Shown: piece by piece, positions 36,614 through 39,718 of the stretch
How positions within the stretch are numbered: the first letter of the stretch is position 1
Layout: each line of letters opens with the position of its first letter
From: Sulfuriferula plumbiphila
Lineage (GTDB): Bacteria; Pseudomonadota; Gammaproteobacteria; Burkholderiales; Sulfuriferulaceae
DNA length: 64,000 nucleotides
NCBI RefSeq assembly: GCF_009938015.1
Contig: NZ_AP021884.1
Coordinates: forward strand, 3,226,585-3,290,584
Direction: 5' to 3'
The notes under the pieces: model-generated
Databases searched by the model: none
Told to the model about the DNA's origin: nothing
The model's input: only the letters and a program-made list of their open reading frames with translations
Position numbers and translations under genes: made by a program

Positions 36614-37441
36614 ATGGAAGAACCCGCCAAATCCAGCTGGCTAGAGCGCCTCGGCGCATTCCTCTCACGCGAGCCGGAAAGCCGTGGCGAACTGGTGGAA
36701 ATACTGCACAGCGCCTATCAGCACAACCTGTTCGACGCCGATGCCTTGTCCATGATCGAAGGCGTGCTGCAGGTATCGGAAATCCAGGTACGCGACATCA
36801 TGATCCCGCGCGCGCAGATGGATATGGTGGACATTAACGATACTCCCGAGCAATTCATTCCGTACGTCATCGAAACCGCGCACTCGCGTTTTCCGGTAAT
36901 TGATAAAAATAAGGATGACGTCATCGGCATTCTGCTCGCCAAGGACTTGTTGCGCTATAACGCGGGCGAAGAATTCAACGTGCGCGAGATGCTGCGCCCG
37001 GCAGTGTTCATCCCGGAATCCAAGCGTCTTAACGTGCTACTCAAGGAATTTCGTGCCAGCCGCAACCATATCGCCATCGTCGTTGATGAATACGGTGGCG
37101 TCGCCGGGCTGGTCACCATTGAAGACGTGCTCGAGCAAATCGTCGGCGACATCGAGGACGAATACGATTTCGACGAAACCGAAGACAATGTCATCCGGGA
37201 CAAGGCCGGGCGCTATCGGGTTAAGGCCGTTACCGAAATTGCCGATTTCAACACCGTGCTGGGTACGCAGTTTTCCGACGAGGAATTCGATACCGTCGGC
37301 GGCCTGGTAGTGAGCCGGTTCGGCCACCTGCCCAAACGCGGCGATGAAATCGAATTCGACGGCCTCAAGTTTCATGTGCTGCGTGCAGACAGCCGGCGGT
37401 TGCATACGCTGCTGGTTGAAAAATCAGCCGACGGCGCCTAA
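36614..37441 (+). CDS. corC: CorC/YbeX transporter-associated CBS protein
   Basis: 275 residues. Two CBS domains (about 55-180) are seen, beginning at VRDIMIPRAQMDMVDI, with HIAIVVDEYGGVAGLVTIEDVLEQIVGDIEDEYD in the second. A C-terminal CorC/HlyC transporter-associated domain (RYRVKAVTEIADFN to the end) follows. E. coli CorC is linked to magnesium/cobalt resistance; the molecular role is not fixed. It follows ybeY after one base. Confidence 0.92.
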   Translation: MEEPAKSSWLERLGAFLSREPESRGELVEILHSAYQHNLFDADALSMIEGVLQVSEIQVRDIMIPRAQMDMVDINDTPEQFIPYVIETAHSRFPVIDKNKDDVIGILLAKDLLRYNAGEEFNVREMLRPAVFIPESKRLNVLLKEFRASRNHIAIVVDEYGGVAGLVTIEDVLEQIVGDIEDEYDFDETEDNVIRDKAGRYRVKAVTEIADFNTVLGTQFSDEEFDTVGGLVVSRFGHLPKRGDEIEFDGLKFHVLRADSRRLHTLLVEKSADGA

Positions 37442-37457: not shown

Positions 37458-38102
37458 CTATTTCGATGAAATGGTAGAGACATAAGCGGCTACAGCCCTA
37501 ATCTCCTCCGGCTTGAGATTGTGGGCGACCACCTTCATGGCTGCTGCATCGGAGCGCTCCTCGGTCCGCTGAAACACATTCAGTTGCCTGACGATATAGT
37601 CGGCATGCTGTCCTGCAATGCGCGGGAACTGCCCGCTGCCGGCATCTTCTGCGCCATGGCAGGCCAGGCAGGCCGGAACACCCTCGCTGGAGATGCCGTT
37701 AGCGAAAATTGCCCTGCCTTGGTTCTCCAGTTTGGTATTTCCCGGCGTGTCTGAAACAGGCTTCTGCGCGGCATAATAGGCGGCCAGCTCCCTGATCTGC
37801 GCGTCTGTCAGGCTCCTGGAGATGCCCCACATATACTCGTATCCTGCCGGATCCAGGCGGTTGTGACTCCTGAATTCCTTCAACTCCGAGATCAAGTACC
37901 ATTCCTGCTGTCCGGCCAGCCGGGGGAAGGTGGGGTTGATCGAATTGCCGGTGACGCCATGGCAATCCGAGCACACCTGCTCGGCCAGCGTCTTGCCGGG
38001 TACGCCGGGGTCGCCCAGATTGCGGGAAGAATTTTTCGTCGTCGTGCAGCCTGTGCCGATAGCGGCCAGCACCAGTACTAGCGTAATTGTGGCAGTTTTC
38101 AT
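37458..38102 (-). CDS. Diheme cytochrome c, c4-like
   Basis: 214 residues with two haem motifs: CSDCH (about residue 44) and CLACH (about residue 146), one per domain, the tandem layout of cytochrome c4. The signal region (MKTATITLVLVLAAIGTGC) could be a lipoprotein signal; the -3 residue is not a typical one, so a soluble form is also possible. Met ligands are likely in GYEYMWGIS and DAAAMKVVAHN. It lies 84 bases downstream of the Cyc2-like gene in the same direction, so it may accept electrons from it. Confidence 0.88.
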   Translation of the reverse strand: MKTATITLVLVLAAIGTGCTTTKNSSRNLGDPGVPGKTLAEQVCSDCHGVTGNSINPTFPRLAGQQEWYLISELKEFRSHNRLDPAGYEYMWGISRSLTDAQIRELAAYYAAQKPVSDTPGNTKLENQGRAIFANGISSEGVPACLACHGAEDAGSGQFPRIAGQHADYIVRQLNVFQRTEERSDAAAMKVVAHNLKPEEIRAVAAYVSTISSK

Positions 38103-38186
38103 TGTTCAGCCTCCGCATATTCCATCATTCATGCCGGGCGTGCACCGTCAAGACGACGCACGCACCAAGTCATTGAAACCGGCTTG

Positions 38187-39488
38187 TCAGTACGCGCCCC
38201 ATACATAGAAGAAAAGCGTGTTGTTGTCACTGGCTTTCGGGTTAGGCGCTGCGCTGTCCGCGTTGAACATGGTGTATTGCACGCCGGTCCGCACATATTG
38301 CACCGGCATCCAGAATATCTCGGGTGTCCAGCCACGCGTTCCGGTCCGGGAGACGGGTGGATTCTGTGAGGCGAAGAAGCCATTTGCATTCGAGCTATTG
38401 CTGACATCGAAATAGGAGAGGGTGGCGCCGTACTTTGCCTGATAGATGAAGGATGCCTTGGCCCTCAGGGAATTGACCGTGTCGGACAGCAGCCCTGCCG
38501 TTGCGGGGTCGATGTTTTCATGGATGCGGGTGAGCGTCGCGGTGACCGTATACGGGTCGAGCAGATACTGGTACTGGAAGTCGATGCTATTGTCACGGTA
38601 GCGGTCGGTTGGTCCGGAGTGGCTGGTCGGATCCGTGTATTGATGGACGTCCAGGCGAGACAGGCCGATCATCGCATTGTGGGGGCCCCATTCGTGCGTC
38701 AGCGCCAGCCGCAAATAGGGATTGGTCCCCTTGATGTTGATCTGGCCACCATTACCCTGGGTCATGAAGGAAAAGATGCCATCGCCGGTGCGGTAGCCGG
38801 TGAGTTCCGCATACACCGTCTTGTTCCAGTAGGCATAGGCGCCGATTCCCGCCACTTGCTGGGCGAGACCGCCGTCAAGCATCGGGGTGAGCGCGCCCCC
38901 TGCTGCGGTGCTGCCGGGCACCACGCCGTAGCCCCAGGCCGGGGTGCTGTTCCACACGTCCTGCACGCCGGGGTTGTTGTGCAGGGTGAGGCCGTAGATC
39001 AGATCCTGCTTGTCGTTGATGAAGTGGTCGACGTAACGCAGATCCAGGTTGTCTGAACCGGTATGCCCCGCGTAACCGGTATCACCGGCGTAATTGTTAT
39101 AGGTGATCTGCATGAACCCGCCCGTTGTGTCGGAAATTTTTCCTGCAATGAACAGGCTGGCGGTGCTGAATATGGGCTTTCCGTCCTGTGCGTGTCCGGT
39201 AGCGGCGGGATCATTGACCTTCACTTTGTTGGCGGTCAGCACGGCCATCATCGAAAGCGGCAGCGCACGTTGCCCGATGGTATAGCCGGTAAGCTTGAAC
39301 AAGCGCCCGTAAGGGGTAAGTTCGGGAAATTGTCCGCCGGCATGACAGGCGACGCAGTTTTGCCCGGTCTGTCGAGCGAAAGCAGGTACGGCATCTGCGT
39401 TGACTGAAGTGAACGACAGAATCGATACAACTAACCAGGTGGCAACCTGGTCGATCCTGCAAGCTTTCATCAGCAATTGCCGCAACAT
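38187..39488 (-). CDS. Cyc2-like fused monohaem cytochrome-porin
   Basis: 433 residues. A signal peptide (WLVVSILSFTSVNADA) is followed by one haem motif, CVACH, in VPAFARQTGQNCVACH and then FPELTPYGRLFKLTGY. This context matches the N-terminus of Cyc2, the outer-membrane iron oxidase of Fe(II)-oxidising bacteria. The remaining 370 residues alternate polar and aromatic residues with short turns, as in a beta-barrel, and end in the aromatic-rich NTLFFYVWGAY. Cyc2-type proteins place the haem in the barrel lumen to pull electrons across the outer membrane. Iron as substrate is an inference. AAGGGGA precedes the ATG at 39488. Confidence 0.75.
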   Translation of the reverse strand: MLRQLLMKACRIDQVATWLVVSILSFTSVNADAVPAFARQTGQNCVACHAGGQFPELTPYGRLFKLTGYTIGQRALPLSMMAVLTANKVKVNDPAATGHAQDGKPIFSTASLFIAGKISDTTGGFMQITYNNYAGDTGYAGHTGSDNLDLRYVDHFINDKQDLIYGLTLHNNPGVQDVWNSTPAWGYGVVPGSTAAGGALTPMLDGGLAQQVAGIGAYAYWNKTVYAELTGYRTGDGIFSFMTQGNGGQINIKGTNPYLRLALTHEWGPHNAMIGLSRLDVHQYTDPTSHSGPTDRYRDNSIDFQYQYLLDPYTVTATLTRIHENIDPATAGLLSDTVNSLRAKASFIYQAKYGATLSYFDVSNSSNANGFFASQNPPVSRTGTRGWTPEIFWMPVQYVRTGVQYTMFNADSAAPNPKASDNNTLFFYVWGAY

Positions 39489-39571
39489 GATTTTCCCCTT
39501 ATCCCATAACTTAAAAAACGAACAATTGCTTTACCACGATGGCAAATAACCATACTAATAGTGTGGAATAT

Positions 39572-39586
39572 ATCCTGTCTCAGGAT
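39572..39586. promoter_or_regulatory. Inverted repeat upstream of the Cyc2-like gene
   Basis: A perfect ATCCTG-N3-CAGGAT lies about 85 bases upstream of the ATG at 39488 in an AT-rich leader. It is of operator size. No confident -10/-35 pair could be placed around it, so its role is a guess. Confidence 0.3.
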
Positions 39587-39672
39587 TAAAGCCAAGGTCA
39601 AACAATTTATTGTTATTGATTGAACGCGTGCTTGAGGCCGATCAGGCAATGCGCGCGGTCTTGAAAAGAAGA

Positions 39673-39718
39673 CACCCCAATAGAAAAGGCAGCCTAAGCT
39701 GCCTTTTCTATTGGGGTG
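39673..39718. terminator. Terminator downstream of fba
   Basis: A perfect 20-bp stem (39673-39692 and 39699-39718) with a 6-nt loop, its core AGAAAAGGCAG / CTGCCTTTTCT. It lies 11 bases beyond the stop of fba on the minus strand. The stem is unusually long and symmetrical. Confidence 0.8.

Follow-up and report, generated by a model that had tools for sequence, protein, structure and literature searches.

A Cyc2-like cytochrome-porin and its Cyc1-type cytochrome c4 partner in Sulfuriferula plumbiphila, a putative two-gene module for electron uptake

We analysed a stretch of 64,000 nucleotides from the sulfur-oxidising bacterium Sulfuriferula plumbiphila (assembly GCF_009938015.1, contig NZ_AP021884.1, positions 3,226,585 to 3,290,584; hereafter the window) and found in it two adjoining genes that encode a Cyc2-like cytochrome-porin and a dihaem cytochrome c4 of the Cyc1 type. 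We interpret the pair as a two-gene electron-uptake module whose donor is probably Fe(II), with Fe(II) oxidation as our best guess at its function. The available text of a recent study shows that the pair and its link to iron are already published for Sulfuriferula (PMC12285272), and the S. plumbiphila locus adds one more example. What is added here is the predicted lipid anchor of the partner, a near-strict linkage of the two genes and an apparent two-gene transcription unit. Cyc2 ranks among the main genetic markers of microbial iron oxidation, and the cyc2-c4 pair is perhaps a better marker than cyc2 alone.

The locus and the Cyc2-like protein

Both genes lie on the minus strand, the Cyc2-like gene followed by that for the dihaem cytochrome (Table 1). 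An earlier reading of the letters alone (the sequence-only reading) had given the span of 37458-39488 to a Cyc2-like cytochrome-porin with a dihaem partner. The parts that it named are present, but the span covers both genes rather than Cyc2 alone and the strand, which was left unstated, is minus. The two-haem cytochrome c that it placed next on the same strand corresponds to the c4 gene, with the haem sites CSDCH and CLACH.

Table 1. Features of the cyc2-c4 locus, in window positions
Feature	Position	Strand	Remarks
cyc2-like gene, cytochrome-porin of 433 aa	38187..39488	-	ATG start, AAGGGG-type ribosome site
Gene for dihaem cytochrome c4 of Cyc1 type, 214 aa	37458..38102	-	ATG start, GGAGG ribosome site
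Intergenic gap between cyc2 and c4, 84 bases	38103..38186	-	Holds GGAGG
Promoter-like TTGGCT-17-TATATT, ~80-110 bases before cyc2	39567..39595	-	Consensus match only, 9/12
Strong intrinsic-terminator-like hairpin, 3' of the preceding fba	39673..39718	-	20 pairs, T-rich tail

The terminator-like hairpin follows fba and would set the pair apart as a transcription unit of its own. Taken with the promoter-like site, with a gap between the two genes in which we found no terminator on the minus (coding) strand, and with the convergent CorC-like gene downstream of c4 (end at 37441), this hairpin makes cyc2 and c4 look like one closed two-gene transcription unit. Promoter-like sites near cyc2 were not more numerous than in shuffled sequences. 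The surroundings, named from the sequence by eye, are housekeeping genes, with miaB, phoH-like, ybeY and corC-like genes on one side and fba, pyk, pgk and gap on the other. The pair consists of two genes only and no oxidase genes are linked to it. The genome is a single contig of 3,452,774 bases.

Cyc2 has been defined by AXPXFAR[Q/K][T/Y] just before CXXCH, PXL about 4 residues after it, a single haem, length and a porin (PMC8406198). The protein in the window contains VPAFARQTGQNCVACHAGGQFPELTPYGR, exactly as the sequence-only reading quoted it, and the one CXXCH in the FARQTG context, found letter for letter, is the sole such site in 433 aa. The defining motif is present as AVPAFARQT-GQN-CVACH (residues 33-49), with the haem site at C45-x-x-C48-H49, and PEL follows at residues 55-57, 5 residues after H49 (4 in Cluster 1-like sequences). 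A signal peptide covers approximately residues 1-32, with an AxA-type site, judged by eye, ahead of residue 33, and a single CXXCH behind a signal peptide in a protein of at least 365 aa is the layout expected of Cyc2. A six-frame scan of the window found the pattern A.P.FAR[QK][TY] with CXXCH after it a single time, whereas residue frequencies predict ~5e-7 chance occurrences. The haem site and its flanks are invariant across more than 100 relatives, down to distant Cyc2 types, and the chain ends in an aromatic residue, Y433. Searches of Pfam and NCBIfam returned no significant match to this protein.

The sequence-only reading had suggested barrel prediction as a check on its beta-barrel-like remainder, and AlphaFold2 gave 16 strands in each of two apo models (pTM 0.75 with the precursor and 0.81 with the mature chain as input), with the predicted barrel at about residues 78-432. 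The best PDB matches of the first model were 16-strand porins of the OmpF/OmpC/PhoE type (Z ~20 over residues 72-433), among them 5O78, which is also the reported best match of modelled A. ferrooxidans Cyc2 (PMC10654088). Confidence is low for the haem segment in both apo models (pLDDT mostly <50). The models support the view that the Cyc2-like protein has a 16-strand outer-membrane porin domain. Position 81, on the first barrel strand, is Met in 89% of relatives, including the Cyc2 of a rus operon, and Leu or Val in Cluster 1-like sequences. Met81 is a possible candidate for the distal haem ligand in Cluster 2-like Cyc2, and such ligation, if true, could be relevant to the published gap in potential (560 vs 208 mV).

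Phylogenetic placement, the partner cytochrome and linkage

A Cyc2 tree was built from 78 sequences, which comprised the window protein, its genus, named loci, distant members of the order and the Cyc2 from a genome that has a rus operon, and which left out A. ferrooxidans, Leptospirillum and Zetaproteobacteria sequences as well as named Cluster 1 and Cluster 3 references. The tree is divided by a deep split with 100/100 support, with the window protein and the rus-operon Cyc2 on one side and a Cluster 1-like group on the other. This latter group, which carries the motif ALPAFARQTGMACSACH..HFP.LN, is probably Gallionellaceae and kin. The phylogeny that had been proposed as a check puts the protein inside Cyc2, and its grouping with the rus-operon Cyc2 supports a Cluster 2-like assignment. 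The tree agrees with the available text of the Sulfuriferula study, in which the Cyc2 of the genus is closest to cluster 2 (PMC12285272). The rus operon itself (L158, G664:C3:234500-247000) holds cyc2, a cupredoxin-like gene, cox genes, ctaA, ctaB and rusticyanin, all named by eye, and cyc1 is absent beside its cyc2.

The partner matches Cytochrom_C and Cytochrome_CBB3 in Pfam. Its best solved-structure match in phmmer was A. ferrooxidans Cyc1 (1h1o, 6.6e-39), versus 7e-30 for an ordinary c4, and it has in common with Cyc1 an insert and a YMW segment (YMWG here) around the first distal Met. A quick tree placed Cyc1 among the c4s linked to Cyc2, separate from the ordinary ones, with moderate support (SH-aLRT 88). 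By these comparisons the partner resembles Cyc1 more than it does a general c4. Elsewhere in the same genome (G000:C1:1418302-1418939; L162, L163) we observed two adjoining single-haem c4-like genes that look like separately encoded halves of a dihaem c4.

The N-terminus of the partner, MKTATITLVLVLAAIGTGC-TTTK, has the lipobox IGTGC with Thr at +2. Among Cyc2-linked c4s, counted by haem position, the Cys is in the expected place in 90 of 93, Asp stands at +2 in 0 of these 90, and the MW segment occurs in 88, while two Cys-bearing members from distant loci (L125, L134) resemble ordinary signal peptides. Within the genus, all of the Cyc2-linked c4s examined are predicted lipoproteins with [YFH]MW, and the unlinked c4s examined have neither a lipobox nor [YFH]MW. 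The partner and nearly every relative are thus predicted to be lipoproteins. The +2 sorting rule, by which lipoproteins without Asp go to the outer membrane, comes from E. coli, and because Asp is never found at +2 the partner would, by this rule, be sent to the outer membrane. Our literature search found no description of a lipid-anchored Cyc1 or of a lipid-anchored Cyc2-linked c4, which is weak evidence of novelty, and the available text of Hobart et al. 2025 does not mention a lipid anchor (PMC12285272). The anchor looks to be the little-noticed part of a pair that is itself already known in the genus.

The two genes are adjacent in 68 of the 69 named loci with enough downstream DNA, and the linked loci include Thiobacillus, Burkholderia, Paraburkholderia, Collimonas, Glaciimonas, Rugamonas and Pandoraea. 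When conserved neighbours were compared across 80 named loci, solely cyc2 and c4 recurred across families, and the other recurring neighbours look like local Burkholderia synteny. No dihaem c4 lies beside cyc2 in the Cluster 1-like loci of f25 and f37. In the genus group, Cyc2 is present in 15 of 18 genomes (13 of 14 good assemblies), and the nearest full-length proteins are 65-75% identical to that of the window.

Several genomes of the survey depart from a single linked pair. One complete genus member (G006) is without Cyc2 and no linked-class c4 was seen in it, as if the two had been lost, or never gained, together. Three others (G008, G011 and G012; L183-L185) have two full Cyc2 copies, and linked-class c4s adjoin the second copies too. 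We also observed that the pair of Cyc2 and a lipoprotein c4 is widespread in Burkholderia, Paraburkholderia, Caballeronia, Trinickia, Pandoraea and Oxalobacteraceae (L031-L036, L046-L077, L089, L090 and others). To our knowledge none of these groups, nor Collimonas or Rugamonas, are known as iron oxidisers.

Mechanism and electron donor

We propose that Cyc2 would be an outer-membrane porin of 16 strands whose N-terminal segment carries a single c-type haem. After entering the pore, dissolved Fe(II) would be oxidised at this haem, which presumably lies inside the barrel, and the electron would pass from Cyc2 to the Cyc1-type dihaem c4, perhaps by direct contact. The c4 would be lipid-tethered to the periplasmic face of the outer membrane, probably beside Cyc2, and from it the electron may travel on through the periplasm to a cbb3 oxidase and, uphill, to bc1/NADH. 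The genome has ccoO/ccoP-like genes (L164), and a search of it for rusticyanin gave nothing above the cut-off, with weak cupredoxin-like matches only.

Hobart et al. 2025 (PMC12285272) describe growth on Fe(II) in gradient tubes for four Sulfuriferula isolates that have cyc2 (cluster 2) and cyc1, and they report cyc2 from all four described Sulfuriferula species. It is because of this growth and this distribution that Fe(II) oxidation is our best guess, and we infer that Fe(II) is the donor in S. plumbiphila as well, although the same text relates that the original description of this species recorded no growth on iron(II) despite its cyc2. Mariprofundus Cyc2 oxidises Fe(II) in vitro (PMC8406198), and our literature search found no report of an Fe(II)-oxidation assay for any protein of the betaproteobacterial Cyc2 branch. 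The conduit of Cyc2 and c4 put forward by the sequence-only reading is supported in form by the Cyc2 motif, the porin fold and the tree placement, and its caution about iron was apt.

The genes by themselves do not identify the donor, since many heterotrophs carry this pair as well. The same outer-membrane conduit could instead take electrons from mineral surfaces such as metal sulfides via dissolved shuttles, from Mn(II), from reduced humics or quinones, or from sulfur compounds, and the frequency of the pair in organisms not known to oxidise iron speaks for such a donor. Cluster 2 and 3 homologues have also been said to need functional verification (PMC8406198), "Ca. Tenderia" expresses a Cyc2 homologue on a cathode (PMC5371394), and the Sulfuriferula isolates grow on pyrrhotite too in the available text of their description (PMC12285272). 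However, the Cyc2 proteins for which we found published assays oxidise Fe(II), and the cyc2-bearing isolates of that study do grow on Fe(II), and we regard another donor as the main rival reading but as rather unlikely. It would seem distinctly improbable that the pair has a protective or regulatory use, in which Fe(II) would be oxidised at the surface for detoxification or iron acquisition, or redox state sensed, without energy conservation. Such a use would suit the heterotrophs that have the pair without a lithotrophic life, and a locus of two genes with no linked oxidase, but a haem porin with a dedicated dihaem carrier suits respiration, and Cyc2 is kept in nearly all good assemblies of an autotroph genus.

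The fold matches to general porins might, finally, be taken to mean that an ordinary porin with a chance CXXCH lies beside an ordinary cytochrome c4. Against this stand the invariant haem site and flanks, the linkage to c4 in all but one of the loci counted, and a partner that is distinct from the other c4s of the genus, and we consider this explanation refuted for practical purposes. Rather, we favour an electron-uptake module with Fe(II) as donor. Beyond S. plumbiphila, we tentatively hypothesize that the Cluster 2-type Cyc2 of Burkholderiales may form a self-contained module of two proteins: Cyc1, anchored by a lipid on the periplasmic side of the outer membrane, would receive its electrons directly from Cyc2, dispensing with rusticyanin. 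Such a module would occur far beyond the iron oxidisers recognised so far, and common soil heterotrophs might use it to draw electrons from outside the cell. A constant lipid-anchored partner would give a testable account of electron transfer away from the single Cyc2 haem in the absence of rusticyanin, and it is the constancy of this anchor on a Cyc1-type partner, along with the strict linkage, that we think worth following.

Comparison with known systems

The closest counterparts are the Cyc2 and Cyc1 of Sulfuriferula spp. AH1, GW1, GW6 and HF6a, which belong to the same genus group and have a Cluster 2-type cyc2 with cyc1 in the available text (PMC12285272). The growth of these isolates on Fe(II) is published there, whereas the S. 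plumbiphila Cyc2 is known here from its sequence.

The rus operon of A. ferrooxidans has the same order of a cytochrome-porin and then a dihaem c4, and the YMW segment and Tyr63 of its Cyc1 are retained in the partner. However, no rus, cup or coxBACD adjoins the pair here, which is thus not a rus operon, and the partner differs from A. ferrooxidans Cyc1 in being a predicted lipoprotein and in the second haem site, where the CMECH of Cyc1 has become CLACH and Glu121, which lies inside this site, is Ala. Tyr63 and Glu121 are residues that we take to matter for rusticyanin.

With the Cyc2 of Cluster 1 (Mariprofundus ferrooxydans PV-1, Gallionellaceae) the protein shares the motif, the fused layout and 16 strands, although Cluster 1-like sequences are deeply separate in our tree, have Leu or Val in place of Met81, and lack a dihaem c4 beside their f25 and f37 genes. 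The MtoAB, PioAB and MtrAB systems likewise join an outer-membrane porin to c-type haem for electron transfer, but in these a separate multihaem cytochrome is inserted in the porin, while in the window protein one haem site is fused to the barrel.
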